32,999 bases of DNA from positions 1 to 32,999 of the forward strand of contig JAFWVC010000011.1 in assembly GCA_017518415.1 (NCBI GenBank). The letters are read 5' to 3'. Below the pieces are notes generated by a model. The model had not been told where the DNA came from, searched no databases, and saw nothing but the letters and a program-made list of their open reading frames with translations. Positions 8,631 to 28,611 of this stretch are shown here, in pieces. The first letter of the stretch is position 1. Every line of letters starts with the position of its first letter. A program made the position numbers and the translations under genes. The DNA comes from Clostridia bacterium. GTDB lineage: Bacteria; Bacillota; Clostridia; Oscillospirales; Acutalibacteraceae.

Positions 8631-8632
8631 AA

Positions 8633-8742: not shown

Positions 8743-8758
8743 AGGAGGGAGAAGCGTC

Positions 8759-11038: not shown

Positions 11039-11050
11039 CAAGGAGAAACA

Positions 11051-13309
11051 ATGACACACGGCCGTCAACAGGACGTGTCATTTCAGGCGCCGGCCCGCCA
11101 CATGTGGCGGCGAACGCTGGCGGTGATTCTGCTGTTTGCGCTGGGGTTTACCGGCGTATCGGCCCAGCTGTTGCGCGTACAGGTATTCGAAGGCGCCGTC
11201 TGGCGCCGTCGGGCACAGGAGCAGCAGCTCAGCGGGCAGCCGGTTGCCGCCAAACGCGGCGCCGTGTACGACCGCAACGGCGAGGTGCTGGCCCGCAGTG
11301 TGGAAACGGCGACGGTGCTCATGCGCCCGGCGGCCATTCCGGACGAGGAGTCCCGGCGCCTGATCGCCTGCCAGGCCGCGCAGCTGCTCGGCGTGGACGA
11401 GGCCAAAGTATATGCCCGTACCGGCAAAACCTATTCCAACTGCGAAACGGTGGCTGCCCGGGTCGATTTTGACAAGGCCGACGCCTTCATCCGGTGGCTG
11501 CAGACGTGTTCGCTGCCGGGTGTGTTCCGCATCGTGCGGGATTATCGGCGGGAATATCCGGGCGGGTCGCTGCTCTCGTGCGTGCTGGGTTTTGCCGGCA
11601 GCGACGGCAGCGGTCTGGAAGGGTTGGAGGCCCGGTATGAAAGCACGCTGGCCGGCAAACCCGGCCGGGTGGTGCTCACGCAGAACGGGTGGGGGGATGC
11701 CCTGCCGCAGCATCTGCAATATGAAGATACCATTGATGCGCAGGAGGGCAACAGCCTGACGCTGACGATAGACGCCAACATCCAGAGGATGACCGAGATG
11801 TATCTGGATACCGCCGTGCGGGAGTGCGGCGCTACCGGCCGCGGCTGCGCCATCGTGATGGACGCCGGTACCGGCGCCGTTCTGGCCATGGCTGTCAAGC
11901 CGGATTACGACCTGAATCAGCCGCGCGAGCTCAACGACTACGGCCGCCGGCTGCTGAACGCGGCCGCCGGCGGGCAGGACGAACGACTGCTCGCCGCGCT
12001 GCAGAGCCAATGGAAAAACAAGGCTGTTTCGGAGTTCTACGAACCGGGGTCGGTCTTCAAATCTTTCACTGCGTCGATGGGGCTGGAACTCGGTCTTGTG
12101 ACCGAAACGACGCCGTTTTACTGCCGGGGGTATTACTCCATGCCCGGGGCGCCCCTGATGAAGTGCCACGTGTACCCCCGTTCCCACGGTTCACAGACCT
12201 TTGCCGAGGCCATCTCCCACTCCTGCAACCCGGCGTTCATGACGCTCGGCGGGATGGTCGGCGGAGAAAACTTTTCCCGCTTTTTCGAGGCGTTCGGTTT
12301 TACCGAACGCACCGGGATCGATCTGCTCGGGGAGGCCCGCGTCACGCCGTCTTTGTATCATACGGCGGAGCGGATCACGCCGCTGGACGTGGCGACCTCA
12401 TCCATCGGGCAGACCTTCAAGGTCACCCCGATCCAGATGATCACCGCCATGTGCGCCCTGACCGACGGGGGTGAGCTGCTGCAGCCGTACGTGGTGCAGC
12501 GCGTCACCGCGCCGGACGGCTCCGTGGTCGCCGAACAGGGGCGCACCGTGCGCCGCCGCGTGGTGTCACAACAGACGGCGCAGCGTATGTGTGCCCTGCT
12601 GGAAGGCGTGGTCGACGGCGGCGGCGTCAAGAACGCATACGTCGCGGGGTACCGCGTAGGCGGCAAAACGGGCACCTCGGTCAAGACCGACAGCGCCGTC
12701 CAAGCCGACGGCCGCAAAAACGTCGTTGCCTCCTTTATGGGCATCGCTCCGGCGGACGATCCGCAGGCCATCGTGCTCGTGCTGATCGACGAACCGCAGA
12801 CCGCTATCCGTTACGGCGGCACGCTGGCGGCGCCGGTGGCGCAGCAGATTTTTTCGCAGCTGCTGCCGTATCTGGGCGTCGAGCCCCGCTATACGGAAAA
12901 GGAACAAAAGCAACTGGCCCGCATCGTGCCTGATATCACGGGCCTGACCGCCGCCAAGGCGCAGCAGGCGCTGGAAAAGCAGGGCTTGAAACTGTATCTG
13001 TCCGGCGACGGAACCTCGGTGCTGCGGCAAAATCCGCCGGCCGGCGAACCGATCCGGACCGGCGGGCGGGTGGTGGCCTATACGTCGGCTGAACCGGCGC
13101 GGACGGTCACGGTTCCCGCCCTGATCGGCGGTACGCTGGCGGCGGCCTTGAGCAAGGCCGCGGACGCCGGGCTGAACCTGCTGATCGATGGCTTTGAGCA
13201 GGACGCCGGCACGGCGTTCATCGCGGCGCAATCCGTTCCGGCGGGCGAAACGGTGCCGCTCGGCACCGCGCTGACGGTGCGGCTGCTGTATAAGGACAGT
13301 ATAGAATAA
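11051..13309 (+). CDS. spoVD: Second class B PBP with two PASTA domains (SpoVD position)
   Basis: The 752-residue protein is a tandem paralogue of the preceding PBP. It has a membrane anchor (about residues 17-37), pedestal domain (KRGAVYDRNGEVLARS), a transpeptidase domain with S334-x-x-K337 (EPGSVFK), S391-C392-N393 and K539-T540-G541, and two C-terminal PASTA repeats. In Bacillus the second of these genes is spoVD, needed for spore cortex synthesis with SpoVE, and the sporulation gene in this window agrees with that. Which paralogue serves division and which the cortex cannot be proven from sequence. C372 and C392, 20 residues apart, resemble the Cys pair that forms a regulatory disulfide in B. 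subtilis SpoVD. AAGGAG precedes the ATG. Confidence 0.85.
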   Translation: MTHGRQQDVSFQAPARHMWRRTLAVILLFALGFTGVSAQLLRVQVFEGAVWRRRAQEQQLSGQPVAAKRGAVYDRNGEVLARSVETATVLMRPAAIPDEESRRLIACQAAQLLGVDEAKVYARTGKTYSNCETVAARVDFDKADAFIRWLQTCSLPGVFRIVRDYRREYPGGSLLSCVLGFAGSDGSGLEGLEARYESTLAGKPGRVVLTQNGWGDALPQHLQYEDTIDAQEGNSLTLTIDANIQRMTEMYLDTAVRECGATGRGCAIVMDAGTGAVLAMAVKPDYDLNQPRELNDYGRRLLNAAAGGQDERLLAALQSQWKNKAVSEFYEPGSVFKSFTASMGLELGLVTETTPFYCRGYYSMPGAPLMKCHVYPRSHGSQTFAEAISHSCNPAFMTLGGMVGGENFSRFFEAFGFTERTGIDLLGEARVTPSLYHTAERITPLDVATSSIGQTFKVTPIQMITAMCALTDGGELLQPYVVQRVTAPDGSVVAEQGRTVRRRVVSQQTAQRMCALLEGVVDGGGVKNAYVAGYRVGGKTGTSVKTDSAVQADGRKNVVASFMGIAPADDPQAIVLVLIDEPQTAIRYGGTLAAPVAQQIFSQLLPYLGVEPRYTEKEQKQLARIVPDITGLTAAKAQQALEKQGLKLYLSGDGTSVLRQNPPAGEPIRTGGRVVAYTSAEPARTVTVPALIGGTLAAALSKAADAGLNLLIDGFEQDAGTAFIAAQSVPAGETVPLGTALTVRLLYKDSIE

Positions 13310-13332
13310 AGGACCGGAAAGGGGTCTTTCTT

Positions 13333-14775
13333 ATGACGATCAAAAGTTTATTCAGCCGTGTGCAGACGGTGCGGCCGATCCCGGAAACGCTGGCGGATGC
13401 GCCGGTGCGCGATCTGACGGCCGATTCCCGCGCGGTGCAGCCCGGCACGGTGTTTTTCTGCCTGGCCGGCACCAAGGCGGACGGCCACGATTTTGCCGCC
13501 GCCGCATTGCAGCAGGGCGCCGCTGCCGTGGTGACGGAGCGCCCGCTGGGGCTGGACAAAGAGATCACGGTGCCCGCTACCCGCCGGGCGTTTGCCCTGT
13601 GCTGTGCCCGTTGGTTCGGCGACCCGTCGGAACGTATGAAGATGATTGCCGTGACCGGTACCAACGGCAAGACCACCACAACGTATCTGCTCAAACAGAT
13701 GCTGGAAAAAACCGGCTATAAAGTCGGGCTGATCGGCACCATCCAGAACATGATCGGCGACACCGTGCTGGAATCCGGCTATTCTACCCCGGAGCCGTAC
13801 AGTTTTCAGCGGCTGCTGCGGCAGATGGCGGACGCCGGGTGCGACTACGTCGTGATGGAGGCTTCCTCCCACGCGCTGGATCAGGACCGGGTGGCCGGTT
13901 GCACCTTTGAGGCCGGCATCTTTACCAACCTGACGCAGGACCATCTGGATTACCACAAAACGATGGAAAATTACCTGCAGGCCAAAAAGAAACTGTTTGC
14001 TCAATCCCGTCTGGCTGTGATCAATGCCGATGATCCCTACGCCGCGCAGATGCGGGACGGGCTGACCATTCCGGTGTTTACCTTTTCCACGCAGGATAAC
14101 AGCGCCGATTTTGTGGCGCACAATATCCAGAGCCGGCCGGACGGCGTGGACTTTGAACTGGTCGGTACCGGACTGATCGGCCGGGTACGGCTGTGCACGC
14201 CGGGCCGCTTTTCGGTGTATAACGCCATGGGGGCGGCCGTGTGCGCGATGGCGCTGGGTATCCCCTTCGATACCGTGATTGCCGCCCTGCCGGAGGTGCA
14301 CGGCGTCAAGGGCCGCGCCGAAGTCGTGCCGTGCGGGCAGCCCTATACCGTGGTGATCGACTACGCCCACACGCCGGACGGTATCATCAACATCTGCCGT
14401 ACGATGCGGGAGTGCTGCCGCGGCCACCTGATTACCCTGTTCGGCTGCGGCGGGGACCGGGACAAGACCAAACGGCCCAAAATGGCCGCGGCCGCGGCCG
14501 AATGGTCGGATTACCTGATCATCACCTCCGACAATCCGCGCAGCGAGGATCCGTCCGCCATCATTGCCGATATTCTGCCCGGTCTGCAAGGCAGAAAGAC
14601 GCCGTACACGGTGATTGAAAACCGGGTCGAAGCCATTCGCTGGGGGTTGGCGCACGCCCAGCCGGGCGACACGCTGCTGCTGGCCGGCAAAGGACACGAA
14701 ACGTATCAGATCCTCAAAACCGGCACCATCCATCTGGATGAGCGGGAAGTCATTGCCGAGGCTCTGCGGGGCTGA
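13333..14775 (+). CDS. murE: UDP-MurNAc-tripeptide synthetase MurE (meso-DAP type)
   Basis: The 480-residue cytoplasmic Mur ligase adds the third amino acid to UDP-MurNAc-L-Ala-D-Glu using ATP. The ATP-binding loop GTNGKTTT is at 109-116, followed by the central-domain segments EASSHALDQDRV and FTNLTQDHLDYH. D400-N401-P402-R403 is the DNPR motif that marks meso-diaminopimelate specificity, so the peptidoglycan should be of DAP type, not lysine type. Length is normal. It precedes mraY as in other Firmicutes, and GGAAAGGGG serves as the ribosome site. Confidence 0.97.
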   Translation: MTIKSLFSRVQTVRPIPETLADAPVRDLTADSRAVQPGTVFFCLAGTKADGHDFAAAALQQGAAAVVTERPLGLDKEITVPATRRAFALCCARWFGDPSERMKMIAVTGTNGKTTTTYLLKQMLEKTGYKVGLIGTIQNMIGDTVLESGYSTPEPYSFQRLLRQMADAGCDYVVMEASSHALDQDRVAGCTFEAGIFTNLTQDHLDYHKTMENYLQAKKKLFAQSRLAVINADDPYAAQMRDGLTIPVFTFSTQDNSADFVAHNIQSRPDGVDFELVGTGLIGRVRLCTPGRFSVYNAMGAAVCAMALGIPFDTVIAALPEVHGVKGRAEVVPCGQPYTVVIDYAHTPDGIINICRTMRECCRGHLITLFGCGGDRDKTKRPKMAAAAAEWSDYLIITSDNPRSEDPSAIIADILPGLQGRKTPYTVIENRVEAIRWGLAHAQPGDTLLLAGKGHETYQILKTGTIHLDEREVIAEALRG

Positions 14776-14796
14776 GGGAAGAAGGAGGAACAGGAT

Positions 14797-15795
14797 ATGG
14801 TCAAAAGTATCCTTTTGACGGCCTGCGGACTGCTGGCCTTTCTGGGTGCGGCGCTGGCCGGGTACAAAGTGGTCCCTTTTCTGCATAAACTGAAGTTCGG
14901 CCAGACCATCCGGGAAGTCGGGCCGGTCTGGCATCAGAAAAAGCAGGGCACGCCCACGATGGGCGGCATCCTGTTCATCGCCGCCTGCATCATCGCGGCC
15001 GCGGCGATGATCGCGGTGTACGATCTCGGCTTTGACGGCGACGCTTTCTCCGCCAACCCCGCCTCCCGTTACGCGCTGATTGCCGGCGCGCTGATGGCGC
15101 TTTGCTGCGGGGGGATCGGTTTTCTGGATGATTATATCAAGGTGGTCAAAAAACGCAACCTCGGGCTGACGGTCGTACAGAAACTGCTGCTGCAGTTCGC
15201 GGTCGGCGGCGGCTACGGGCTGTCGCTGTATCTGGGCGGCGGGTCGCTGCTGTACGTACCTTTTTTCGGCTGGGTGGAGTTCGGCTGGTGGATCATCCCG
15301 TTTTGTCTGTTTGCAGTTACGGCTATGATCAACGCCACCAACCTGACCGACGGAATCGACGGGTTGTGCGCCGGTATCGCGCTGCCCATTCTGCTGCTGT
15401 TTATCACCGTATCCGCCGGGTACAGCGGGCAGACCTTTGCGGCGGCGGCTTTTTTCGGCGCGCTGGTGGGTTTTCTGGTCTGGAACGCTCCGCCGGCCAA
15501 GGTGTTCATGGGGGACACCGGGTCGTTGTTCATCGGCGGGATGCTGACGGCGGTGGCCTTCGGTATCCGGCAGCCGTTTTTGCTGATTCCGGCCTGCATC
15601 GTGTATATTCTGGATATGCTCTCCGTGGTGCTGCAAGTGGCGTATTTCAAGCTGACCCACGGCAAGCGCCTGTTCAAAATGAGCCCGGTTCACCATCATT
15701 TTGAAATGTGCGGCTGGAAGGAACGGACCATCGACGGCGTGTTTATCGGCGTGACGCTGCTGGGCTGTATCTCAGCCTGGTTCCTGCGCGCATAA
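14797..15795 (+). CDS. mraY: Phospho-MurNAc-pentapeptide transferase MraY
   Basis: The 332-residue polytopic membrane enzyme makes lipid I by transferring phospho-MurNAc-pentapeptide to undecaprenyl phosphate. Diagnostic motifs are FLDDYIKVVKKRN (the catalytic Asp-Asp region), NATNLTDGIDGL, MGDTGSLFIGG and the cytoplasmic PVHHHFEMCGWKE. About ten hydrophobic segments fit the known topology. AAGGAGG lies eight bases before the ATG. murD, which often follows mraY, is not present; the next gene is the SEDS protein. Confidence 0.97.
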   Translation: MVKSILLTACGLLAFLGAALAGYKVVPFLHKLKFGQTIREVGPVWHQKKQGTPTMGGILFIAACIIAAAAMIAVYDLGFDGDAFSANPASRYALIAGALMALCCGGIGFLDDYIKVVKKRNLGLTVVQKLLLQFAVGGGYGLSLYLGGGSLLYVPFFGWVEFGWWIIPFCLFAVTAMINATNLTDGIDGLCAGIALPILLLFITVSAGYSGQTFAAAAFFGALVGFLVWNAPPAKVFMGDTGSLFIGGMLTAVAFGIRQPFLLIPACIVYILDMLSVVLQVAYFKLTHGKRLFKMSPVHHHFEMCGWKERTIDGVFIGVTLLGCISAWFLRA

Positions 15796-15825
15796 CGTTC
15801 GAAACGGGAGAAGGGAGGCGACGGT

Positions 15826-17022
15826 ATGAAACAGGCGGAAACGGCGCCGGCCAGGCGGCCGGATGAAAAGCCCGGTACGGCCGGCCGCAAAAGAGGCTGG
15901 CATTTGTTCAAGGCCGAAAACGGCTTCGACATGGTTTTTTTTGCTCTGACGATGCTGATCCTGGTCATCGGCCTTGTCTGTCTGCTTTCTGCCAGTCACG
16001 CCTATTCTTTTTATAAAAACGACGGAGACAGTTACCATTACATCAAACGGCAGCTGATTTTTGCGCTGATGGGGATAGCGGCCATGGTGGCGGTTTCTTT
16101 TGTGGATTATCACATCCTGCACCGGTTTGCCATTCCGCTGATGGTGGTGTCGTGGGGGATGCTGGTCGTCGTGCGGATGATGCCGCCCATCGCCAACGTG
16201 CACCGCTGGATCGTCCTTGGGCCGGTCCGGTTTCAGCCGTCGGAGGTAGCCAAGTTCGCACTGGTGCTGCTGTTCGCCCATCTGATCTCCATCAATCACA
16301 AGCGGATGAAATCCTTCACGCGGGGATATCTGCCGTTTGTCGCCGTGTTGGGCTTTACCTGCGCGTTGGTGGTGATCGAGCCGCATCTGTCCGGTACGAT
16401 CCTGCTGCTGGGTATCGGGCTGGTGATGATGTTCGTCGGCGGCACCCGGGTGCTGTACCTGGCTTTGTCGGTGCTGCTCGGCGGCGGGCTGGCAAGCTAC
16501 GTGATTTTTGTCATGGGGTATGAAATCGAGCGGGTGGAGGTGTGGCTGGACCCGTTTGCGGTGTATACCTCCAGTGCGGCCGGTAAGGACCTTGCCTGGC
16601 AGACGGTGCAGTCGCTGTACGCGATCGGTTCCGGCGGCCTGCTCGGGCAGGGGTTGGGCAACTCGCGGCAAAAGCATCTGTTTTTGCCCGAGCCGCAGAA
16701 CGATTTTATCTTTTCCATCGTCTGCGAAGAGATGGGCTTTATCGGTGCGCTGCTGATCATTTTGCTCTTTATCCTGCTGATCTGGCGGGGATTCAGCATT
16801 GGCATCAAGGCGCCGGATAAGTTCGGCTCGATGTTGGCCATCGGGCTGACGGCGCAGGTGGGGCTGCAGGTACTGTTCAACCTGGCGGTGATCACCAACG
16901 CGCTGCCCAACACCGGCATCAGCCTTCCGTTTTTCAGTTACGGCGGCACTTCGCTGCTGATGCTGCTGGCCCAGATAGGCGTGATCCTCTCCATATCCAG
17001 ACAGACGCACAGGAGGGTATAA
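15826..17022 (+). CDS. ftsW: SEDS-family peptidoglycan polymerase FtsW/SpoVE
   Basis: The 398-residue multi-span protein belongs to the FtsW/RodA/SpoVE family, glycosyltransferases that polymerise lipid II with a cognate class B PBP. It has a charged cytoplasmic N-terminus of about 40 residues and then ten hydrophobic segments. Family signatures include HRWIVLGPVRFQPSEVAKF, GLGNSRQKHLFLPEPQNDFIFS and the C-terminal LPFFSYGGTSLL. In Bacillus the gene at this place is spoVE; whether this protein serves division, cortex synthesis or both cannot be decided. Its partners are probably the two PBPs encoded upstream. murG begins two bases after the stop. Confidence 0.93.
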   Translation: MKQAETAPARRPDEKPGTAGRKRGWHLFKAENGFDMVFFALTMLILVIGLVCLLSASHAYSFYKNDGDSYHYIKRQLIFALMGIAAMVAVSFVDYHILHRFAIPLMVVSWGMLVVVRMMPPIANVHRWIVLGPVRFQPSEVAKFALVLLFAHLISINHKRMKSFTRGYLPFVAVLGFTCALVVIEPHLSGTILLLGIGLVMMFVGGTRVLYLALSVLLGGGLASYVIFVMGYEIERVEVWLDPFAVYTSSAAGKDLAWQTVQSLYAIGSGGLLGQGLGNSRQKHLFLPEPQNDFIFSIVCEEMGFIGALLIILLFILLIWRGFSIGIKAPDKFGSMLAIGLTAQVGLQVLFNLAVITNALPNTGISLPFFSYGGTSLLMLLAQIGVILSISRQTHRRV

Positions 17023-17024
17023 CG

Positions 17025-18146
17025 ATGAGAATACTGCTTGCCGGCGGAGGGACCGCCGGCCACATTCAGCCGGCGCTGGCGATCGCCGCCTGCATCCGGC
17101 AGCATCATCCGCAGGCGGAGTTCCTCTTCGTCGGCGTGAAGGGAAAGATGGAAGCCTCCATCGTACCGAAGGCCGGCTACGATATCCGGCTGTTGGACGT
17201 GCAGGGCTTCGAGCATAAACGCACGCTGCACGCGCTGCGGCACAATATCAAGGCGCTGTTTCAGGCCGGCCGGTCCGGCAGCACCTGCCGCCGGATTCTC
17301 AAGGAGTTCCGGCCGGACGTGGCCATCGGCACCGGCGGTTACGTCTGCGGCCCGATTCTGCGGGCGGCCGGCAAGGCCGGCATACCGGTCATCCTGCATG
17401 AATCCAATGCTTTTCCGGGTGTGACGGTCAAGATGCTGGTGCGGTACGCGACCCTGATCCTCGTCGGGGATGAAAGCGCCGTCAAGCGGCTGCCGGCCGG
17501 CGCGCCGGTGCAGGTGACCGGCAACCCGATCCGCCCGCAATTTTTAACGCTCGACAAAAACGGCGCCCGGCAGCAGCTGGAGCTGGACAGCCGGCCGGTG
17601 ATCCTATCGGTGGGCGGCAGCCTGGGCGCACGCGCCATCAACAACGCCATGGCCGAGGTGATCTGCCGCAATCAGCAGGAGGGCTTCCCGGTGCAGATCA
17701 TCCACTCGGCCGGGCACGGCGGATATGAGAATATGTGCCGCCTGCTGGAAGAAAAGGGCGTGCGCACGGACGATCCGGCCGTACGCGTACGCGGATATAT
17801 CGACGATATGCCGCGCTGCATGGCGGCGGCAGACGTGGTAGTCAGCCGCTGCGGCGCCATGACGCTCAGTGAGCTGCCGGCGGCCGGCAAGCCCGCAGTG
17901 CTTATTCCGTCGCCCTATGTGGCGGAAAACCACCAATATTACAACGCGATGGCCCTGGTCGACAAAGGGGCCGCCGTGTGCATCGAAGAAAAAGACCTGA
18001 CCGGGGAAAAATTGTGGGAGACCCTTTGGAACATCGTTTCCTCCCCGGAGAAGATGCGGCAGATGGCCGCCAGCGCCAAAGCGGCGTCGGTGCCCGATGC
18101 GGCGGAACGGATTTACGACGCCGTTCGCCCCTATCTGCCCGGATAA
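17025..18146 (+). CDS. murG: Lipid II synthase MurG
   Basis: The 373-residue GT28-family enzyme transfers GlcNAc from UDP-GlcNAc to lipid I at the inner membrane face, producing lipid II. The N-terminal loop GGGTAGHIQPALA, the IGTGGYVCGPILRAA segment and the C-domain motifs SVGGSLGARAIN and SRCGAMTLSELPAAGKPAVLIPSP are characteristic. Length is normal. GGAGGG precedes the ATG, within the end of ftsW, implying tight co-translation with the SEDS gene. Confidence 0.97.
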   Translation: MRILLAGGGTAGHIQPALAIAACIRQHHPQAEFLFVGVKGKMEASIVPKAGYDIRLLDVQGFEHKRTLHALRHNIKALFQAGRSGSTCRRILKEFRPDVAIGTGGYVCGPILRAAGKAGIPVILHESNAFPGVTVKMLVRYATLILVGDESAVKRLPAGAPVQVTGNPIRPQFLTLDKNGARQQLELDSRPVILSVGGSLGARAINNAMAEVICRNQQEGFPVQIIHSAGHGGYENMCRLLEEKGVRTDDPAVRVRGYIDDMPRCMAAADVVVSRCGAMTLSELPAAGKPAVLIPSPYVAENHQYYNAMALVDKGAAVCIEEKDLTGEKLWETLWNIVSSPEKMRQMAASAKAASVPDAAERIYDAVRPYLPG

Positions 18147-18230
18147 CGTCGAAGCACCGTTTCTCGTCCCGCGCCATACAATGCTGGCAGAAGCCGTTTT
18201 TACAGGCGGCGCGGGAAAGGGTGATGGGCT

Positions 18231-19490
18231 GTGGCCGAAATGGTCATCGAGGGCGGCCGACCGCTGCGGGGAGAGATCCCGCTGCAGGGGGCCAAAAACA
18301 GTGTACTGCCGATTCTGGCGGCCGCGGTGCTGACCGGCAGCCGCTGCCGGCTGCGCAACTGTCCGCAGCTGCGGGACGTGGATATCATGCTCGAAACGCT
18401 GCGGTATCTGGGCTGCCGGGCCGAGCAGCAGGGCAACACCGTGGAAGTGGATACGGCGGCGATCAGCCGCTGCGATATCCCGGAGGAATATATGCGCCAG
18501 CTGCGCTCTTCCGTCATCTTTTTGGGCGCGCTGGTCAGCCGCTGCGGGCAGGCGGACGTGGCATACCCCGGCGGATGCGACCTGGGCGCCCGGCCGGTGG
18601 ATTATCACGTGGCCATTCTGCGGCAGATGGGCGTGCAGGTCGAGGAATCCGGCGGACGCATCGTCTGCCGCAGCCCGGGCAGGATCACGGGGGTGCCGCT
18701 GTCACTGTTGTTCCCCAGCGTGGGTGCGACGGAGACGGCTATTCTTGCGGCGGTACTTGCCGAAGGGACGACGACGGTCGTCCACGCGGCCCGCGAGCCG
18801 GAAATACGGGATTTGTGCCGGTTCCTGCGGTGCTGCGGCGCGCGGATCCGTACCGGCCGGGACGGAAGCCTGGAGATCGAAGGGGTCGCCGCGCTGCATG
18901 GGTGTACCTTCTCCGTCATGCCGGACCGGATCGCGGCGGTCACCTATCTGGCGGCGGCGGCCGTCACCGGCGGGGAGGTCCGCCTCAAGGGCGCCCGGCC
19001 GGCTCATCTGACGGCGGTGCTGCCGCTGCTGGAACAAACCGGTTGCCGGCTGCTGCTCACGCCGGACAGCATCACGCTGACGGCACCGGCGCGCCTGCGC
19101 GCACCGGGCACGGTCTGTACCATGCCGTATCCCGGCATACCGACCGACGCCGGGCCGCTGCTCATGGCGATGGCCAGCGTAGCCGACGGGACGACCGTCT
19201 TTGTGGAAAACATATTTGAAAACCGGTTCCGCTGTGCGGCGGAGCTGTGCCGGTTAGGCGCCCGCATCCGGGTGGAAAACCGTGTGGCAGTGGTACAGGG
19301 CGTGGAGCAGCTGTATGCGGCGCACGTGGCCTGCACCGATCTGCGCGGCGGTGCGGCGCTGCTGACGGCAGGCCTGTGCGCGCAGGGTACCACGGTGCTC
19401 ACCGGCCTGCGGCATCTGGACCGGGGCTATCAGGTACCGGAGATCTATTTGCAGAAATTAGGAGCCTGTGTGCGGCGGAGAGACGTATGA
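18231..19490 (+). CDS. murA: UDP-GlcNAc 1-carboxyvinyltransferase MurA
   Basis: The 419-residue enzyme catalyses the first committed step of peptidoglycan synthesis, adding enolpyruvate from PEP to UDP-GlcNAc. The substrate-binding K22-N23 lies in the early GAKNSVLPILAAA segment. The catalytic Cys is C116 in GGCDLGARPVD, the residue alkylated by fosfomycin, so a fosfomycin-sensitive type is expected. PTDAGPLL carries the catalytic Asp, and the C-terminal DLRGGAALL motif is conserved. The start is GTG 18231 behind GGAAAGG; the resulting N-terminus matches the family. The 84-base gap before it has no clear promoter. In Bacillus this position holds murB. Confidence 0.95.
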   Translation: MAEMVIEGGRPLRGEIPLQGAKNSVLPILAAAVLTGSRCRLRNCPQLRDVDIMLETLRYLGCRAEQQGNTVEVDTAAISRCDIPEEYMRQLRSSVIFLGALVSRCGQADVAYPGGCDLGARPVDYHVAILRQMGVQVEESGGRIVCRSPGRITGVPLSLLFPSVGATETAILAAVLAEGTTTVVHAAREPEIRDLCRFLRCCGARIRTGRDGSLEIEGVAALHGCTFSVMPDRIAAVTYLAAAAVTGGEVRLKGARPAHLTAVLPLLEQTGCRLLLTPDSITLTAPARLRAPGTVCTMPYPGIPTDAGPLLMAMASVADGTTVFVENIFENRFRCAAELCRLGARIRVENRVAVVQGVEQLYAAHVACTDLRGGAALLTAGLCAQGTTVLTGLRHLDRGYQVPEIYLQKLGACVRRRDV

Positions 19491-20329
19491 ACAAGGAAAC
19501 GCAAATCAAAAAGAATACCGCCGCCGGTGCGAAAAAACGCCGGCGGTACAGCCTTGCGCGGCTGGCGCTGATCCTGTTTGTCGCTCTGCTGCTGGTCACG
19601 GGCGGTATCGTCTGGCTGCTGCTCGGCACGCCGGAGCAGCAGGATACGTCCCTCGGCCTGTTCCGGATCAAGGAGGTGACAGTCAGCGGCGACACCCGGT
19701 ACGACCCGCAGGAGCTGATCGCCACCAGCCAGATCGCGGTGGGGCAAAGCGTGTTCGGCGTCCGGGAACAGCGCGCCGTGGAAAATCTGTTGGCGCGCTA
19801 CCCGTATATTGACCGGGTCAGCATCGACAAGCCCGCGTATGACCGGGTGCAGATCACCGTGACCGAAACGCAGGAGCTCGCCGCCGTCGCTTTGGGGGAC
19901 GAGTGGCTGGTTGTGGGCAGCAACGGCCGCGGTCTGCTGTGTCTCCCGCGGGAGGGAGTTTATCCGCTGCGGCATCTGTACCTGTGCGGGGTCACTCTCG
20001 CACCGGACGCTGACGTCGGCCGTCCGGCCCTGCTGCCGGAGGACCTGAAGGCGGTGCTTACGTTGCGGGACGCCTGCCTGCAAAACGGGTTGGAGGACGT
20101 CGGAGAGATGGATCTGACGCCGGGCGCCGTCCGCTTGATGTGGCGCGGCCAGATCACGCTGCTGCTGGGCAGCCTGTCCAAGGCGGAGTATCAGATCCGT
20201 CTGGCCGCCTCGTCGCTGCCGCCGCTGTTGGAGAAGTACGGCGCCCACGTGCGCGCCGTGTACGATCTGCGCGCTTTTGCCGACCCGGAAAACCTTTCTC
20301 CGCAGGCGTATTTTACTCCCGAGCCCTGA
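19487..20329 (+). CDS. ftsQ: Division protein FtsQ/DivIB (POTRA domain)
   Basis: The 280-residue bitopic protein has a basic cytoplasmic N-terminus (KKRRRYS), one membrane segment (about residues 24-46) and an extracytoplasmic POTRA domain beginning FRIKEVTVSGDTRYDPQEL, followed by the LARYPYIDRVSIDKPAYDRVQITVTE segment typical of FtsQ/DivIB. It bridges FtsL/DivIC and the FtsW-FtsI synthase. The ATG overlaps the murA stop (ATGA at 19487-19490), which decides the start. It is the last gene before ftsZ, which has its own promoter; no strong terminator separates them. Confidence 0.92.
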   Translation: MNKETQIKKNTAAGAKKRRRYSLARLALILFVALLLVTGGIVWLLLGTPEQQDTSLGLFRIKEVTVSGDTRYDPQELIATSQIAVGQSVFGVREQRAVENLLARYPYIDRVSIDKPAYDRVQITVTETQELAAVALGDEWLVVGSNGRGLLCLPREGVYPLRHLYLCGVTLAPDADVGRPALLPEDLKAVLTLRDACLQNGLEDVGEMDLTPGAVRLMWRGQITLLLGSLSKAEYQIRLAASSLPPLLEKYGAHVRAVYDLRAFADPENLSPQAYFTPEP

Positions 20330-20399
20330 TCATCCACAACATTTAGGGGATGTAAGGATTTATACAAACAATTTATTTGATTTTCAGTAAAAAAAGCAG

Positions 20400-20428
20400 T
20401 TGCAATTTATCCCATGGCATGATACAAT
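20400..20428 (+). promoter_or_regulatory. Sigma-A promoter of ftsZ
   Basis: TTGCAA (20400-20405) and TACAAT (20423-20428) are separated by 17 bases in an AT-rich stretch that contrasts with the surrounding GC-rich genes. The start would be near 20435, giving a leader of about 68 bases before the ftsZ ATG. Confidence 0.8.
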
Positions 20429-20502
20429 ATGCTTGTATCTAACTTGGTGGATTTTTGGGGTTCTGTCCGGCAAAGGACGGTACCCGGAGAGGATGTTGTT
20501 TC

Positions 20503-21588
20503 ATGTCTTTTACGTATGACAACGAAACGATGGATGTCGTACAGATCAAAGTCGTCGGCGTGGGCGGCGGCGGCGGGAACGCCGTGAACCGTATGGTCAG
20601 CTCCGGTCTGCAGGGCGTAGAGTTTTTGTCCATCAATACCGACCGGCAGGCACTGAACCGTTCGATGGCCACCCAAAAGATCCAGATCGGTGAAAAACTG
20701 ACCCGCGGCATGGGTGCCGGCTCCAATCCGGAGCGGGGGCAGCGCGCCGCGGAAGAGAGTAAAGACGAGATTACGGCGGCCCTGAAAGGGACCGATATGG
20801 TTTTTATCACAGCCGGCATGGGCGGCGGTACCGGTACCGGTGCGGCCCCCGTCGTAGCGGAGATCGCCCGCGACCTGAACATCCTGACGGTCGCGATCGT
20901 GACCAAACCCTTTGCGTTTGAAGGGCGCCGCCGCATGGAGCAGGCGGAAAACGGCATTGCCACCCTGCGGGAGCATGTGGACAGTCTGGTCATCATCCCC
21001 AACGAGCGGCTGCAGAACTTCAAAGAGCAAAAACTGCCGATGTCCGAGGCCTTTGCCAAGGTGGATGACGTGTTGCGTCAGGGCGTGCAGTCGATTTCTC
21101 AGTTGATCACGATGGATGCTTTCGTCAACCTTGACTTTGCGGACGTTACCGCCATTATGAAGGACGCCGGCTATGCGCACATGGGCATCGGGTACGGCGA
21201 GGGCAAGGACAAGGCGGAGGTGGCCGCGCAGGCCGCCATCGACAGTCCGCTGCTCGAAACCACCATCAACGGTGCGCGCGGTGTGATCATCAACATCACC
21301 TCTTCGCCCGACGTGGATATGGACGACGTGCAGAAGGCTTCCGAACTGATTGCCAACGCGGCCCATCCGGATGCGAATATCATCTGGGGTCTTGCGTTTG
21401 ACGAGAAACTGGCGGACGAGCTGTACGTGACCGTTATCGCCACCGGCTTTGATGAGGAAAGCGCCAACGCCACCACCGCGAAAGACGTCAAAGAAGAAAA
21501 AGGGCCCGAGATCCCCGGCTTCTTCGGCAATAAGGACGACGATCTGGACGACGGCGATCTGCTGAAGATCTTCAACCGGAACCGCTGA
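20503..21588 (+). CDS. ftsZ: Cell-division GTPase FtsZ
   Basis: The 361-residue tubulin homologue polymerises into the Z ring. Visible features are the N-terminal [15 protein letters not shown], the tubulin signature [18 protein letters not shown], and [22 protein letters not shown] with the T7-loop residues that complete GTP hydrolysis. The C-terminal linker is short and acidic and ends in KIFNRNR after the segment [10 protein letters not shown] use ATG 20503, with AGAGGA about 10 bases upstream; the frame stays open further upstream but that part is leader. It has its own promoter and terminator, and no ftsA lies upstream. Confidence 0.97.
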
Positions 21589-22305: not shown

Positions 22306-23190
22306 TTATTCAAGGTCCCGGCGCCCGTTCTGTGACGGAGGACGGAAAATGACCTTTTTACTGAAAATATAATTCAGGATCAGCACAATAATATTCATGG
22401 CGATTTTGGCAAATCCGTACGGGCAGCCGATCCCGTCTACCAGCAGTACCATGCCGGCCGCGTCGATCGCAAAAGAGAACAGCCGGGCGGCCATAAACAG
22501 CCCGCACTCCCGCAGGGCCTGCCGGCCGCGGGTATGGCTGCGGAACACAAAGATGCGGTTGACAAAAAAGGCAAAGATGACCGCTCCCGTCCATGCCAGG
22601 ACGTTGGAGGCAAGGTTGGCGGCGACCGGCGACATCACCGTCAGAAAAGCCTGATAGCTGAGGTTGGCCAGCACCACGTTGATCAGCGTGGTCAATGCGC
22701 CGAAAACGACGTAGGTCACGGTTTCCCGGTTGAGCCATTGCGGAAACCGCCGCCATGCCGCGCACCACAGCAGGATCGCCAGCAGGACGCATCCGCTGCA
22801 GCCGAGGCAGAGCAGCGCGTCGATCCATGCCGCCGGCCCGCCGCGCAGCAGCGCCCCGATGCACGGCACCGGGGCAAGAACCGCACACAGCCCCGCGCAC
22901 AAAAGGATGCTGCGCCGGGCCGGAACACCGTGCCTCCATGTGCTCAGCCGGCACAGCAGGCAGGTCCCGCCGCACGCCGCGGTATGCAGTGCCACCCGGC
23001 CGATCCAGAGCGGGATCTGCGCGTCCTGCACGCCGATGACGGCGCGTAGCGCGACCGAGAGCCAGTCACAGACGACGGCTGCGGCAGCCGCCGGGTCGAC
23101 AAGCAGATACAGCAGAATCACGGCCGCCGTATACAACAGAAAACCGCATCGCAGCCAGCATGCGCTCTCCGCAAAAATCGATCGTTTCAT
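22306..23190 (-). CDS. GtrA-family membrane protein with a long N-terminal membrane extension
   Basis: The C-terminal part of this 294-residue protein (from about residue 156) is a GtrA domain: four hydrophobic segments with [42 protein letters not shown] and the C-terminal [10 protein letters not shown]. GtrA proteins are thought to help move lipid-linked sugars across the membrane and often pair with a GtrB-type GT2 enzyme. The first 150 residues add about four hydrophobic, Cys-rich segments not found in the usual 120-150-residue GtrA; I do not recognise them. It lies nine bases after the NlpC/P60-like gene and 29 bases before folE, in the same operon as rnf. A GT2 candidate partner is at 728-1672. 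Confidence 0.8.
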
Positions 23191-23882: not shown

Positions 23883-24473
23883 TCAGATAGAGTAGGAGGA
23901 GGCAAAACCCATAAACCCGAGCGCCAGGATCCCCAGATACAGCAGGGAGACCGGCATACCGCGGAAGGCGTACGGCATATCAGGGTGATCGGTGCGGTCC
24001 ACACATTCCCGCGTGCAGAGCGACAGGAACAGAAAGCCCGCGCACGCGCCGAGCGCAATGCCCACGGCGGGCAGCAGGGTGACTGCCGCCCGGTGGTTGA
24101 TGATCAGCGCCACCGCGATGACCAGGTTGTTGAATGCAGCCAATGGGAAAAACCGGCCGTACCGGGTGTAAAACCGGGGCAGCAGGTGCCGGAAAAGCAG
24201 AGAAAACAGCCCGTACAAAACGGCGGTAATCGCCACGACGATGCCCGGCCGCAGCAGCTTGATGTTCCAGCTCGTGCCCAGCGCCATATCTATCGGATAG
24301 GCAAGCAACACGGTGCTGACGGCAAACAGCATCAACAGTAAAGAGAAGACGAGAGTGTCCCGGCTGCGGTGCAGCGTGCGCAGCAGCATCGAGGCGCCGA
24401 ACCCGGTGGAAAGTACGATGTTTTGCAGCAGGGCGGCCGTCAGAAAACAGAGCAGCGTTTCACGCCAGATCAT
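23883..24473 (-). CDS. rnfA: RnfA-like membrane subunit without the usual cluster cysteines
   Basis: The 196-residue six-span protein matches RnfA/RsxA in length, hydrophobic pattern, the NIVL segment near the N-terminus, FFPL in the middle and the C-terminal PYAFRGMPVSLLYLGILALGFMGF. In canonical RnfA, a Cys in GLCPFM and a Cys in TTNC bind an intramembrane [2Fe-2S] cluster with two Cys of RnfE. Here those positions are S28 and N116. The gene overlaps rnfE by four bases (ATGA). It should still form the paired membrane core with RnfE, but cluster binding is doubtful. The assignment to RnfA rests on order (after rnfE) and the C-terminal motif. Confidence 0.85.
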   Translation of the reverse strand: MIWRETLLCFLTAALLQNIVLSTGFGASMLLRTLHRSRDTLVFSLLLMLFAVSTVLLAYPIDMALGTSWNIKLLRPGIVVAITAVLYGLFSLLFRHLLPRFYTRYGRFFPLAAFNNLVIAVALIINHRAAVTLLPAVGIALGACAGFLFLSLCTRECVDRTDHPDMPYAFRGMPVSLLYLGILALGFMGFASSYSI

Positions 24474-25105
24474 TTGGCGGCACCCCCTTCCTCGCCCGGG
24501 GCCGCGTTAAACGGCCGACCGGTCAGCCGCTGCAGCAGGCCGCCCATCAAACCCAGCAGCAAAAAGCCGGCGAAGGGCAGTGCCGCCTGCGAGAAGGTAA
24601 ACGGAACGGACAGCGGCACGTCCCAAAGGGTGCCGTACGCCAGCAGCTCGCGCAGGCAGGAGATCAGGCAGATAACCAGCCCGAACCCGCAGGAGGCGGC
24701 CAGCGCATCCAGCAGTGCGTGGCCCGGTCGCCCGTGGACTTCGTACCGGCCGGCATAAAATGAAAAGATGGTGTTGACTGCCATCAGCGGCAGGTACAGA
24801 TACAGCGCTGCGTACAGTTCGTGAGAAATGCAGCGGTTGATCAGCCATCCGGCGCCCAGCAGCAGGACCGTTGCGCCCAGCGTGTACAGCGGCGGGCGCA
24901 GGCGGGAGGGCAGATGCCGCCCCGCCAGCGACATGACAAGGCTGGTCGGCAGCAGGACGGCCGCGGTGCACAGCGTGAGCGCTACGCCGTATTTGAGGTT
25001 GGTGGACACGGCGATGATAGGGCACAGGCCCAGCCCCTGCATCAGCACGATGTTGCGCAAAAAGACCGTTTCCGCAAAGCGGGGCAGAAAAGAGGTGCGT
25101 TTCAT
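24470..25105 (-). CDS. rnfE: RnfE-like membrane subunit with one of two cluster cysteines
   Basis: The 211-residue polytopic protein matches RnfE/RsxE: FLRNIVLMQGLGLCPIIAVS at the N-terminus retains the first conserved Cys (C28), and GFGLVICLISCLRELLAYGTLW matches the family's LREIIGNGTLF-like segment. The second cluster Cys, in the motif normally reading PLIVTNC, is T112 (PLMAVNT). Six hydrophobic segments are visible. Its ATG overlaps the rnfD stop by four bases and its stop overlaps the rnfA start. In canonical clostridial operons rnfG lies between rnfD and rnfE; here there is no space for it. Confidence 0.87.
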   Translation of the reverse strand: MKRTSFLPRFAETVFLRNIVLMQGLGLCPIIAVSTNLKYGVALTLCTAAVLLPTSLVMSLAGRHLPSRLRPPLYTLGATVLLLGAGWLINRCISHELYAALYLYLPLMAVNTIFSFYAGRYEVHGRPGHALLDALAASCGFGLVICLISCLRELLAYGTLWDVPLSVPFTFSQAALPFAGFLLLGLMGGLLQRLTGRPFNAAPGEEGGAAK

Positions 25106-26073
25106 CCTTCCACCTCCCGGTGCCGCCGGCTATCGAGCCGGCGCAGCAGCAAACCGCCCAGCCGGTCAAACAGCGGCGCCGTAGCGTTGGCCAGCAGCAA
25201 AGCGAAGCATACCGTTTCCTCATACGCGCAGTAGCGGCGCATGAGTAGTACGATGCCGGCGGCCGCCATGCCATACAGGATCCGCCCGGGTGTGTTATGC
25301 GGCGACGTGACCGGGTCCGTCAGCAAAAAGACCGATGCGAAGAAAATCGGCGTCGCCCCGATGAGCAGCAGCGCCTGCTGCCAGTCCTGACAAAGCAGCC
25401 GCGCGCCGGCGGTGCAGGTAAGCAGAAAAGACAGCGTCAGCGACGGGGCGGCGGTGCGCCGTACAAACAGATAAATGGCGCACGCGGCGATTACAATGCC
25501 GGCCGCCGCGCCGATCGGGCCGGAAAACTCGCCCAACAGCCAGTCGCCCCACGTCAGGGACAGTGTGCCGCTGCTGAGCCATTGGCCGGCCGGCGAGGTG
25601 ACCGTTTGCAGCTCGGCCGTACCGGTCAGCGGCAGCGCCTGCATGTTCAGCGAGGCAGCCGGAAAAGAGGTCATATATGCGGGGAAAAGCACCGTTACAA
25701 AGGCGACGCCGGCCGCCGCGGGGTTGAACAGGTTGCGCCCGGTGCCGCCGAAAGGCAATTTGACCAGCAAAACGGCAAAGGCGGCAGCCACCGCCGGCAG
25801 CCAATACGGCGCCGTCGGGGACATCATCATGGCGACCAGCGCGCCGGTGACGGCGCAGGACAGATCCGACGGGTCGATCCGGCGGCGCCGCAGCAGGCAG
25901 CCCAGCAGCTCGCACAGCGTGGCGCAGGCCATTCCGCACAGGATCAGCAGCACCGGCCGCCAACCATAGAACACGTAGGAAATCAGCGTCAGAACAGCCA
26001 GCATCAGCAGCACGTCCAGTTGAAACAGGACGGACCGCTCGCCGGTATGTATAAAGGGGGCGTGCTTAGTCAT
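25102..26073 (-). CDS. rnfD: RnfD-like membrane subunit without the flavinylation motif
   Basis: The 323-residue membrane protein matches RnfD/NqrB: SCAVTGALVAMMMSPTAPYW, GGTGRNLFNPAAAGVAF, FFASVFLLTDPVTSPHNTPGRILYG and LLANATAPLFDRL are clear family segments. Canonical RnfD binds FMN covalently through Thr in an S/T-x-A-T motif in the middle region. The matching region here is TVTSPAGQ (157-164), where the acceptor Thr appears to be A162, so covalent flavin is unlikely. ATG 26073 is chosen because GGAGG lies seven bases upstream; it overlaps the rnfC end by eight bases. About nine hydrophobic segments are visible. Confidence 0.88.
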   Translation of the reverse strand: MTKHAPFIHTGERSVLFQLDVLLMLAVLTLISYVFYGWRPVLLILCGMACATLCELLGCLLRRRRIDPSDLSCAVTGALVAMMMSPTAPYWLPAVAAAFAVLLVKLPFGGTGRNLFNPAAAGVAFVTVLFPAYMTSFPAASLNMQALPLTGTAELQTVTSPAGQWLSSGTLSLTWGDWLLGEFSGPIGAAAGIVIAACAIYLFVRRTAAPSLTLSFLLTCTAGARLLCQDWQQALLLIGATPIFFASVFLLTDPVTSPHNTPGRILYGMAAAGIVLLMRRYCAYEETVCFALLLANATAPLFDRLGGLLLRRLDSRRHREVEG

Positions 26074-27316
26074 CGCTTTGCCTCCATTCCAATACCACAT
26101 CGCCGCTTCCGGCTGCCTGCAGAACCATTGCGGTCAGCGGCCGCCGGGCCGGACATACGGCGGCGCAGGCGCCGCATCCGTCACACCGGTCCGGCTGCAG
26201 GGCCGGCAGGCGCGCATATTGCATGTTTTCGTACCGGCGGGCGATCTCATAGGGCAGCAGCCCCGTGTGGCAGGCGTGGGCGCACCGGCCGCAGCCGATG
26301 CATACGCCGGCCGCCGCCGGTTGTTCCTTCATCAGCAGCAGGCAGGTCATCCCCGGCAAAACCGGCAGATCCGGCGTGCCGGGCACGCCGGTAAAGGCGT
26401 CGCCGAAAATCAGCAGACCTTTTCCGGCATCCGCCCCGCAGGCTGCCAGCAGATCGCCGGCGGGCGTGCCGTAGGGCACCAGCAGGTTCTGCGGCCGCTC
26501 GACGGCATCGCCGGTCACGGTGACTACGCCGGTGCAGGCCGGTTCGCACAGATACAGCGCGCGGTACAAGGCAAGGCACGCCTGCAGGCCCACGACGCAG
26601 ACCGCCGTATCGTCACGCACCGGCGCAAAACGCCGTACAGGGTACACGGGCGGGATCTGATACAGAACTTTGGGGCCGAGCCGCCGTTTCAGCTGCCGGC
26701 GCAGCCGCCCCGGCAGATAGACGGATATATACGTTTCCGCGGCGCCGACCGCCCGTGCAGCTGCCTGCAGCCCGGTCAGACACGGTTCCGGATGCTGTGT
26801 GAGCAACGCCGGCGCGGCACAGTCGAACGGTTCCGGTGCGGCGGCATCGGCCGCCAGGACCGTGCAGCCGCTGTCGGCCGCTTCTTTCAGTTTTTCGAAC
26901 AGAGGGATGCCGTCGTGCTCATCGATGATGCCGGCCAGCCGCGCCGCCTCGATGATCTGTGCGGCGGTGAAAGGCGGATCCGGCTGCGTCGGCGCGTCCC
27001 AGGCAGGCACCGGCGCGTCTGTTACGTCCAGCACCGCGCAGGAAAGTACGCCGTACAGCGGATGGGTCAGCGGCCGGATATCGGTCAGCACGCCGGTGAC
27101 GCTGCAGGGCAGCACCGGTTCGCCGGTTTGTTCCGGTACGCTGATCGGCCGGCCGCGCATCACGGTATCGCCGATCTCGCAGGCGGGTGAACGCGCCGCA
27201 TCGGTGCCGTAGGCCAACGGCAGCCAGACCTGACGCGGTACGGCCAGCGGCACGACGGGGCGGAAAAGAGCCTGCCCTTTTTGAAAAGCCGGGGCAATGC
27301 CTCCGTGCAGCGGCAT
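26066..27316 (-). CDS. rnfC: RnfC-like peripheral subunit: two [4Fe-4S] sites kept, nucleotide/flavin motifs lost
   Basis: The 416-residue protein has the RnfC layout: N-terminal barrel-like domain (HGGIAPAFQKG, then EIGDTVMRGRPI), a central domain, a segment TGVVTVTGDAVERPQN typical of RnfC, and a C-terminal ferredoxin domain with two CxxCxxCxxxC clusters (C339-C349 and C378-C388). The motifs that bind FMN and NADH in canonical RnfC are not recognisable: G-x-GGA-x-FPT is replaced by IIDEHDGIPLF (130-140), the AECEP motif by AAAPEPF (158-164), and YP-x-GG-x-KQ by YPVRRFA. It is the first gene of the operon, with AGGAGG eight bases before its ATG. The 120-base gap to mecA shows no convincing promoter. 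Confidence 0.85.
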   Translation of the reverse strand: MPLHGGIAPAFQKGQALFRPVVPLAVPRQVWLPLAYGTDAARSPACEIGDTVMRGRPISVPEQTGEPVLPCSVTGVLTDIRPLTHPLYGVLSCAVLDVTDAPVPAWDAPTQPDPPFTAAQIIEAARLAGIIDEHDGIPLFEKLKEAADSGCTVLAADAAAPEPFDCAAPALLTQHPEPCLTGLQAAARAVGAAETYISVYLPGRLRRQLKRRLGPKVLYQIPPVYPVRRFAPVRDDTAVCVVGLQACLALYRALYLCEPACTGVVTVTGDAVERPQNLLVPYGTPAGDLLAACGADAGKGLLIFGDAFTGVPGTPDLPVLPGMTCLLLMKEQPAAAGVCIGCGRCAHACHTGLLPYEIARRYENMQYARLPALQPDRCDGCGACAAVCPARRPLTAMVLQAAGSGDVVLEWRQSDD

Positions 27317-27436: not shown

Positions 27437-27979
27437 GTGCGGATGGAATACAGCCCGTGCGGGGCGTTATACGTGTGGCTCACCGCGCAGGACACCGTGC
27501 GTATGGGCCTTGGGGAAGCGCCGGTCTGGACCGACGGATCGGCCCGCGGGGCACTGCGGCAGATCCTGCACAGCGCACGGGAAAAGACAGACTTCCGGGC
27601 CACCGGCGGCCTGACGCTGGAAGTGCTCGGCACCGGCAACGGGTATTTGCTGATTTTTACGGCCGCGCCTGCCGACGCCGGCAAGCCGCCCCGTACCGAG
27701 GGCCCGGCGGCTTATTGGCTGCCGGACAGCGACAGTCTGCTGCAGCTGGCCGGCGGTTTGCCGGGGTTGACCGGCCTGCCCTACGCCTCCTTATACCGGG
27801 CGGAGCGGGGCTTTTTTCTGTTGATTTACGGCCGCGCGCCGGTCCTGCAGCAGCTGCTGTGCGAAACGGCGGTAGCCGCCGGCACCGGGGACACGGTAGC
27901 CGCGCATATAGAGGAGTATGGCCGGGCCTGCTGCATCGGCGATGCACTGACCCGGCTGCAAAAATGTTACAGTTTCTGA
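27437..27979 (+). CDS. MecA-like adaptor protein
   Basis: The 180-residue protein resembles the MecA/YpbH adaptors that deliver substrates to the ClpC ATPase. The N-terminal half reads like clostridial MecA (ALYVWLTAQDTVRMGLG, then ARGALRQILHSAREKTDF). The C-terminal half has the pattern SLLQLAGGL, ASLYRAERGFFLLIYG and HIEEYGRACCIGDALTRL seen in the MecA ClpC-binding domain. The acidic linker common in Bacillus MecA is short or absent. GTG 27437 is preceded by AAAGGGGAAG. It is monocistronic, and its last 13 bases overlap the end of the converging rpe gene. The partner Clp protein and substrates are not visible here. Confidence 0.7.
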   Translation: MRMEYSPCGALYVWLTAQDTVRMGLGEAPVWTDGSARGALRQILHSAREKTDFRATGGLTLEVLGTGNGYLLIFTAAPADAGKPPRTEGPAAYWLPDSDSLLQLAGGLPGLTGLPYASLYRAERGFFLLIYGRAPVLQQLLCETAVAAGTGDTVAAHIEEYGRACCIGDALTRLQKCYSF

Positions 27980-28611
27980 ATGGCGGCCACCAGAGCCTTG
28001 GGATCCGCCGCGTTGAACAGCGCGCTGCCGACCACGGCGATATCCGCCCCGGCCGCCGCGGCGACGGGCGCCGTTTCAGCGTTGATGCCGCCGTCCACTT
28101 CCACCTTGGTTTTCAGGCCCCTGCGGTCGATCTCAGCGCGCAGCGCGGCCACCTTGGGCATCATATCGGCCATGAACTTCTGCCCGCCGAAGCCCGGTTC
28201 GACCGTCATGACCAATACCAGGTCCAACTTGTCCAGATACGGGAAAGCGGCTTCGGCCGGGGTAGCCGGCTTGATGGTCAGGCCCGTCTTGACGCCGGCG
28301 TTGCGGATGGTGTCAAGTGTTTCATCAATGGGGGAGGAGCATTCCAGGTGAATGTTCAGCAAATCCGCCCCGGCTTTAATAAAGGCCGGGATCATGCGGT
28401 CCGGATATTGCATCATCAGATGCACGTCCAGAAACATGTCGGTCACTTTGCGCATGCAGGCCAGCACCGGCGGGCCGAAACTCATGTTCGGCACGAAGAC
28501 GCTGTCCATCACGTCAACGTGGATCATGTCGGCGCCGGTGTCTTCGACAAACTGGAACTCTTTGGCCACGTAGGCAAAGTCACAGGTCAGGATCGAAGGG
28601 GAAACTTTCAT
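27967..28611 (-). CDS. rpe: Ribulose-phosphate 3-epimerase
   Basis: The 214-residue TIM-barrel enzyme interconverts ribulose 5-phosphate and xylulose 5-phosphate in the pentose phosphate pathway. Motifs include SPSILTCDFAYV, HVDVMDSVFVPNMSFGPPV (metal-binding His and Asp), DVHLMMQYP, the VEPGFGGQKF phosphate-binding loop and EVDGGINAETAP near the C-terminus. Length is normal. It has its own near-consensus promoter 41 bases upstream of the ATG and is transcribed alone, converging on and overlapping the MecA-like gene by 13 bases. Confidence 0.97.
   Translation of the reverse strand: MKVSPSILTCDFAYVAKEFQFVEDTGADMIHVDVMDSVFVPNMSFGPPVLACMRKVTDMFLDVHLMMQYPDRMIPAFIKAGADLLNIHLECSSPIDETLDTIRNAGVKTGLTIKPATPAEAAFPYLDKLDLVLVMTVEPGFGGQKFMADMMPKVAALRAEIDRRGLKTKVEVDGGINAETAPVAAAAGADIAVVGSALFNAADPKALVAAIQKL

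Follow-up and report, generated by a model that had tools for sequence, protein, structure and literature searches.

Four rnf-Like Genes without rnfG and rnfB

What does an Rnf-type operon encode when rnfG and rnfB are missing from it? The question is raised by a locus of Clostridia bacterium (assembly GCA_017518415.1, contig JAFWVC010000011.1), of which positions 1-32,999 of the forward strand were analyzed; this whole stretch of 32,999 nt is referred to as the window. On its minus strand, from position 27316 to 23883, four intact open reading frames (ORFs) form the operon rnfC'-rnfD'-rnfE'-rnfA', in which primed names denote the reduced set and unprimed names canonical Rnf. The operon represents a conserved Rnf-derived set which lacks RnfG, RnfB, the [2Fe-2S] sites, the RnfC pocket for flavin mononucleotide (FMN) and NADH (reduced nicotinamide adenine dinucleotide) and, judged by motif, the covalent FMN of RnfD, and which very probably constitutes an independent complex that does not pump. 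The four genes are:

26066..27316, minus strand: rnfC', 416 amino acids (aa), RnfC-like; both [4Fe-4S] motifs present, glycine-rich FMN/NADH loop replaced by D-E-x-D-G
25102..26100, minus strand: rnfD', 332 aa, RnfD/NqrB-like membrane subunit; riboflavin ligands Asn and Asp present, flavinylation motif lost
24470..25105, minus strand: rnfE', 211 aa, RnfE-like membrane subunit; first cluster Cys present, second (C108 of Acetobacterium woodii) replaced by Thr
23883..24473, minus strand: rnfA', 196 aa, RnfA-like membrane subunit; cluster Cys residues replaced by Ser and Asn, Na+-site Asn present

Successive genes overlap by 35 bp (C'/D'), 4 bp (D'/E') and 4 bp (E'/A'), and the operon contains neither an rnfG between rnfD' and rnfE' nor an rnfB after rnfA'. 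A sequence-only reading of this DNA had described four overlapping rnfC-D-E-A genes without rnfG and rnfB, and ORFs, Pfam and NCBIfam bear this gene content out; the span it quoted, 24470-27316, ends with rnfE' and has to be extended by rnfA' (23883-24473). By Pfam the membrane subunits match PF03116 (E = 1.9e-65) and PF02508 (5.5e-30 and 1.6e-14), and C' consists of RnfC_N and 4Fe-4S domains. All four subunits match Rnf families by Pfam and NCBIfam, yet remain below the curated NCBIfam cut-offs, with 138.8 bits against 245.95 for rnfC, 153.7 against 207.05 for rnfD, 75.5 against 213.4 for rnfE and 66.2 against 229.3 for rnfA. They score higher to Rnf than to Nqr models, and no NqrF or NqrC is encoded in the operon.

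The genome (1.70 Mb in 121 contigs, 99.4% complete, 3.3% contamination) was searched for a complete rnfCDGEAB set and for apbE, as the sequence-only reading had suggested, and both were found. Family searches yielded one FMN_bind protein, one RnfB above the cut-off and four Rnf-Nqr membrane subunits. A different contig (C112) carries a complete rnfCDGEAB with every canonical motif, to which the sole FMN_bind protein and the RnfB both belong; ApbE is encoded as well. Because of this complete operon, the set in the window is a second set, a divergent paralogue of canonical rnf, rather than the only Rnf of the organism.

Cofactor Sites of the Reduced Subunits

For the assessment of the remaining subunits, cofactor sites were mapped on solved Rnf, with the numbering of the A. 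woodii cofactor residues (PMC11889175), and tallied in alignments that contained 22 canonical and as many as 105 reduced sequences. Among the ligands of the intramembrane [2Fe-2S] cluster, RnfE C108 is a Cys in none of 105 reduced sequences and RnfE C25 in 41, RnfA C113 is a Cys in 18 of 98, and RnfA C25 in at most one of 98, being mostly Ser. No reduced set can hold all four cysteines; the set in the window has one of them. The lost cysteines are mostly replaced by polar Ser, Thr or Asn. In RnfC the FMN/NADH loop GLGGAGFP has given way to a conserved D-E-x-D-G, with a Gly changed to Asp or Glu in about 80 of 89 sequences. The flavinylated Thr of RnfD is present in eight of 105 reduced sequences, most of the others having Ser; an Asp located six positions ahead of this Thr in 21 of 22 canonical sequences is lost in the reduced ones. 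Most reduced RnfE sequences have also lost the Na+-linked ion pair R67-E115.

Other sites are kept. All eight [4Fe-4S] cysteines of RnfC' are invariant in the 88 sequences aligned, and RnfA Asn112, which helps to bind Na+ in Rnf (PMC11889175), is conserved in 94 of 98. The riboflavin ligands Asn123 and Asp249 of RnfD are mostly present in reduced sets, and both occur in the window; the count of Asn123 is biased for the 80 named loci described below, as the search pattern contained that Asn. In an unbiased sample, made up of the window and 16 loci of the main lineage (L043-L053, L055-L057, L059, L060), Asn123 was found in six of nine loci with C' and in none of eight loci without it. The AlphaFold model of C' (predicted local distance difference test, pLDDT, 89) matches RnfC (8ahx_C) with a template modeling (TM) score of 0.85, and that of D' (pLDDT 91) matches RnfD (7zc6_D, 8ahx_D) with TM scores of 0.75-0.85. 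Since both models are confident and match the solved subunits, the folds of RnfC and RnfD are kept. With their ligands present, the C' subunit is predicted to bind its [4Fe-4S] clusters and D' its riboflavin.

Some subunits differ in their terminal parts. RnfC' of the Anaerotruncus group (L128, L130, L143, L165) has no N-terminal barrel domain and ends in a long coiled-coil-like tail rich in Ala, Glu and Gln. RnfE' of a group without C' (L048-L060, L190) often carries a long charged C-terminal tail, which is probably disordered.

Distribution and Conservation of the Four-Gene Form

With the RnfD of the window as query, divergent RnfD genes were found in many genomes of the same family, arranged as D-E-A without G. 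A profile of the divergent RnfA separated the two forms, the reduced ones scoring approximately 110-240 bits and canonical RnfA up to approximately 105 bits. A hand count of the profile table puts the divergent form in 17 genomes out of at least 39 for the family of the window and in 30 out of 36 for a second family; among the genomes sampled from the other orders of the class, no score was above 105 bits. Named genomes were scanned with a pattern built on a close D' set, as the broad A' and D' alignments had no sufficiently conserved stretch. The scan returned 80 loci, including Caproiciproducens, Caproicibacter, Anaerotruncus colihominis DSM 17241, Negativibacillus, Angelakisella, Merdimmobilis, Faecalispora and Anaeromassilibacillus. 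All 80 are C-D-E-A or D-E-A, a few being cut by contig ends, and none contains G or B. As these independently fetched loci share their gene content without exception, the arrangement is far beyond chance. The distance between D and E is bimodal, with less than 200 bp in 150 reduced loci and at least 296 bp in canonical ones. The one exception is L052 (genome G018), a reduced operon with a gene for a CAP-domain protein inserted between rnfD' and rnfE'. This gene (5418-6188) occupies exactly the place that rnfG has in canonical operons.

For most close pairs, the ratio of nonsynonymous to synonymous substitution rates (dN/dS) ranges from about 0.04 to 0.2 in each of the four genes. Values of 0.2-0.44 were obtained for one more diverged pair and for the E gene of genus g43 described below, which has a long disordered extension; all four genes lie well below 1, which indicates purifying selection. 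The sequence-only reading had proposed a reduced and repurposed Rnf complex that is maintained by selection and had recommended the dN/dS test. Open frames, low dN/dS and conservation across many genera agree with maintenance, and the 80 named loci together with the RnfD tree establish the four-gene form as a separate, widely conserved lineage instead of one decaying genome. Repurposing as such is likewise supported, whatever its purpose, and the evidence goes beyond what was visible to that reading, since most cofactor sites of the remaining subunits are gone as well; the reading was silent on the kept RnfC clusters, the riboflavin ligands and the loss of RnfC in several lineages.

The reduced set is common in gut Clostridia and usually stands alongside a normal Rnf. 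In 45 genomes with the reduced form, RnfB was found above the cut-off in 40 and just below it in three more, and most of the 45 also have FMN_bind and ApbE. Genome G194 (two contigs, 99% complete) contains C'D'E'A' and neither RnfB nor FMN_bind, and its RnfD' is the only RnfD. Four genomes of one genus of another family (G042, G065, G079, G117) have a reduced CDEA, a single RnfD and no FMN_bind, and G042 is additionally devoid of RnfB and ApbE. Further loss affects rnfC', which has disappeared from a clade within the family of the window and from some of the second family's genomes, so that the canonical RnfC is the only one they encode; in the family of the window this applies to 11 D'E'A' genomes. 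The clade without C' has kept D'E'A' even though RnfC' and the riboflavin Asn are both gone. The D-E-A membrane core is thus the part that is always kept.

Origin of the Reduced Form

Within genus g43 both forms occupy the same chromosomal site: G093 (L182) has prmA-rnfCDGEAB-DUF4015, and G042 and G065 (L054, L183) have prmA-rnfCDEA-DUF4015. In the latter two RnfG and RnfB are missing at that site, and the pattern of lost and kept cofactor residues is the same as in other reduced sets. Their RnfE carries about 300 extra disordered N-terminal residues. In the RnfD tree the reduced form of g43 is nested inside canonical Rnf with a support of 97 in the Shimodaira-Hasegawa-like approximate likelihood ratio test (SH-aLRT). 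Because of the shared site, two separate origins of the reduced form are favored. They are not proven: a single reduced clade is not rejected by the approximately unbiased (AU) test (p 0.33), and the trees of C, E and A are also compatible with one origin.

Genes Flanking the Reduced Operon

The neighborhood of the operon in the window comprises the following genes:

22306..23190, minus strand: GtrA-family membrane protein, 9 bp past the NlpC/P60 gene
23200..23868, minus strand: NlpC/P60-domain protein, single-pass, extracytoplasmic, 14 bp past rnfA'
27437..27979, plus strand: probable MecA-like gene between rpe and rnfC'; weak match here (PRK02899, E = 0.008), firm in relatives
27967..28611, minus strand: rpe, ribulose-phosphate 3-epimerase, upstream of the reduced operon

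The GtrA-family gene probably belongs to the same transcription unit as the reduced operon. On the plus strand, a dcw-type cluster (7198-21588) with mraW, two PASTA penicillin-binding proteins, a mur ligase, mraY, ftsW, murG, ftsQ and ftsZ is convergent with it.

Upstream of the reduced operon, rpe was present in 80 of the 83 loci with enough flanking sequence, and a MecA-like gene, oriented oppositely, in 53 of 83. A single-pass DUF4015 protein (putative glycosyl hydrolase) is encoded directly after rnfA' in 40 of 79 loci; other loci have CAP or LytR-CpsA-Psr proteins. In 11 canonical loci none of rpe, MecA-like and DUF4015 genes adjoins rnfC or rnfA; in G093 DUF4015 follows rnfB. The genome of the window encodes no DUF4015 anywhere, and its NlpC/P60 protein takes the position that DUF4015 has in about half of the relatives. 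An alignment to solved relatives places Asn, Tyr and Ala at the catalytic Cys, His and His positions of this protein. With three catalytic positions replaced it is probably a pseudo-hydrolase, and its domain probably binds the wall without cutting it. A membrane-anchored extracytoplasmic envelope protein beside the reduced set is a recurring theme, though one not seen in all loci.

In Caproicibacterium lactatifermentans rpe (GJQ69_09515) is strongly upregulated on lactate and has a predicted Rex site, and canonical rnf is downregulated (PMC9600882). If the reduced operon follows rpe in this organism, the lactate induction would be an expression datum for it. Control by Rex through rpe was rejected, as the scores of Rex-like sites ahead of rpe in the reduced loci are similar to those of random windows.

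Possible Function and Alternative Explanations

From the published Rnf mechanism (PMC11889175) it follows that the reduced set should support neither ferredoxin:NAD+ oxidoreduction nor cluster-driven Na+ pumping. Since the electron-carrying parts are mostly lost and the remainder is nevertheless under strong selection, a function other than that of textbook Rnf has to be assumed. Homology, fixed gene order and overlap let us infer that the C'D'E'A' proteins form one complex. The conserved and the dispensable parts, together with the adjoining genes, suggest a membrane module with a cytosolic iron-sulfur and flavin input which would work with neighboring envelope proteins, a proposal we put forward tentatively, at slightly less than even probability. 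In the forms with C', the C' clusters and the D' riboflavin could make up a short redox relay on the cytosolic side, by which electrons are sensed or taken up and for which we see an even chance. The selected function would reside in the D'E'A' core, either conformational or ion-conducting, and the core would be coupled to the single-pass extracytoplasmic protein encoded after rnfA' (DUF4015, or the putatively inactive NlpC/P60 protein in the window); some lineages would have dropped the redox input and retained D'E'A'. That the core acts on the envelope or on ion flow is doubtful in our estimate.

Several observations weigh against such a module. Half of the loci are without DUF4015, some of them without any envelope protein after rnfA', the evidence for the envelope link is gene neighborhood, and the rpe and MecA-like neighbors may be mere inherited synteny. 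Also the co-occurrence of C' and riboflavin ligand is imperfect: the eight C'-less loci of the unbiased Asn123 sample form one clade, the C'-bearing loci L047, L050 and L056 have His at this position, and a C'-less group (L154, L159, L161, L166) has both riboflavin ligands. Finally, the Ser at the Thr position of most reduced RnfD may itself be flavinylated.

A one-way electron exporter would lead electrons from a cytosolic donor over the C' [4Fe-4S] clusters and the D' riboflavin to an extracytoplasmic flavin, quinone or other acceptor, with A' and E' as structural subunits. The invariant C' clusters and the riboflavin ligands mostly kept where C' is present would suit it, and a precedent is given by two-subunit Nqr/Rnf-like systems that lack the flavinylation site of RnfD and are proposed to be electron exporters (PMC8238504, PMC11334425). 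However, no extracytoplasmic redox protein is encoded nearby, where wall-type domains are found instead, the FMN linking riboflavin to the outside is probably gone, and D'E'A' persists in lineages that have lost both C' and the riboflavin Asn; we consider an exporter unlikely. The persistence of D'E'A' without C' would be expected of a cofactor-free channel or transporter, in which D'E'A' conducts an ion or small solute, C' regulates and the envelope neighbors are incidental. The kept Na+-site residue Asn112 and the polar replacements of the cluster cysteines point in the same direction, as does a weak similarity of the D' model to the urea transporter and AmtB folds (E ~0.04, TM ~0.46). The likeness to urea transporters is a trait of the whole NqrB/RnfD fold and not special to D', which counts against a channel, and so does the loss of the R67-E115 ion pair in most sequences; its probability is low, too.

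As canonical rnfG, rnfB and apbE are present in most genomes with the reduced set, C'D'E'A' could be thought to borrow RnfG and RnfB and to act as a second, hybrid pump. Such sharing was rejected, because the cluster, FMN and NADH sites are lost within the C'D'E'A' subunits themselves and because G194 and the four genomes of another family lack any FMN_bind, G194 and G042 also RnfB; it is very improbable. A functionless rnf duplicate in decay would account for the missing active-site residues but not for open frames, low dN/dS and conservation across many genera, and its probability is close to negligible. The tentatively preferred membrane module would, in its furthest form, be a third branch of the Rnf/Nqr superfamily without transmembrane electron transport: the D-E-A core would be a moving or ion-conducting device acting on a wall-associated protein at the former place of RnfG, and the RnfC clusters a dispensable redox switch. 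To this extended version we assign a rather small probability.

Relation to Known Systems and Implications

With Rnf of Clostridium tetanomorphum (7zc6) and A. woodii (9eri) the reduced set shares homologous C, D, E and A in clostridial order, the C and D folds, both RnfC [4Fe-4S] motifs and the RnfD riboflavin ligands. It differs by the absence of RnfG, RnfB, full [2Fe-2S] ligands, the RnfC FMN/NADH loop and the RnfD flavinylation motif, and by scores below the NCBIfam rnf cut-offs in all four subunits. For Na+-NQR (NqrABCDEF) an origin from a duplicated rnf operon that lost rnfB was proposed (PMC4014512), as is proposed here for the reduced set, and its NqrA is a relative of RnfC without redox cofactors (PMC12174285). 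Nqr, however, kept NqrC (RnfG), the cluster, the FMNs and the full electron path and recruited NqrF, whereas the reduced set has none of these. The two-subunit Nqr/Rnf-like systems consist of an RnfD-NqrF fusion and an FMN-bind protein, without RnfA or RnfE (PMC8238504, PMC11334425). They resemble the reduced set in an RnfD-like membrane subunit without the flavinylation Thr; in contrast to them, the reduced set includes A' and E', usually together with C', and is without an FMN-bind protein, and by Pfam neither PF00175 (NqrF) nor PF04205 was matched in the proteins of the operon in the window. No description of a four-gene rnfCDEA form was found in the searched literature, which leaves out most subscription journals, and the string "rnfCDEA" occurred in papers only within mentions of rnfCDEAB in unrelated Firmicutes.

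Automatic annotation would label the reduced set as Rnf, to be read as energy conservation. By the known mechanism it is no working Rnf, and metabolic models that count it as such would be wrong. In genus g43 the loss becomes traceable, since the same site holds the six-gene operon in one species and the four-gene operon in others. The reduced sets are natural mutants for the live dispute whether Na+ is carried by RnfA/E or by RnfD, and they bear on what the membrane core does after loss of the cluster.

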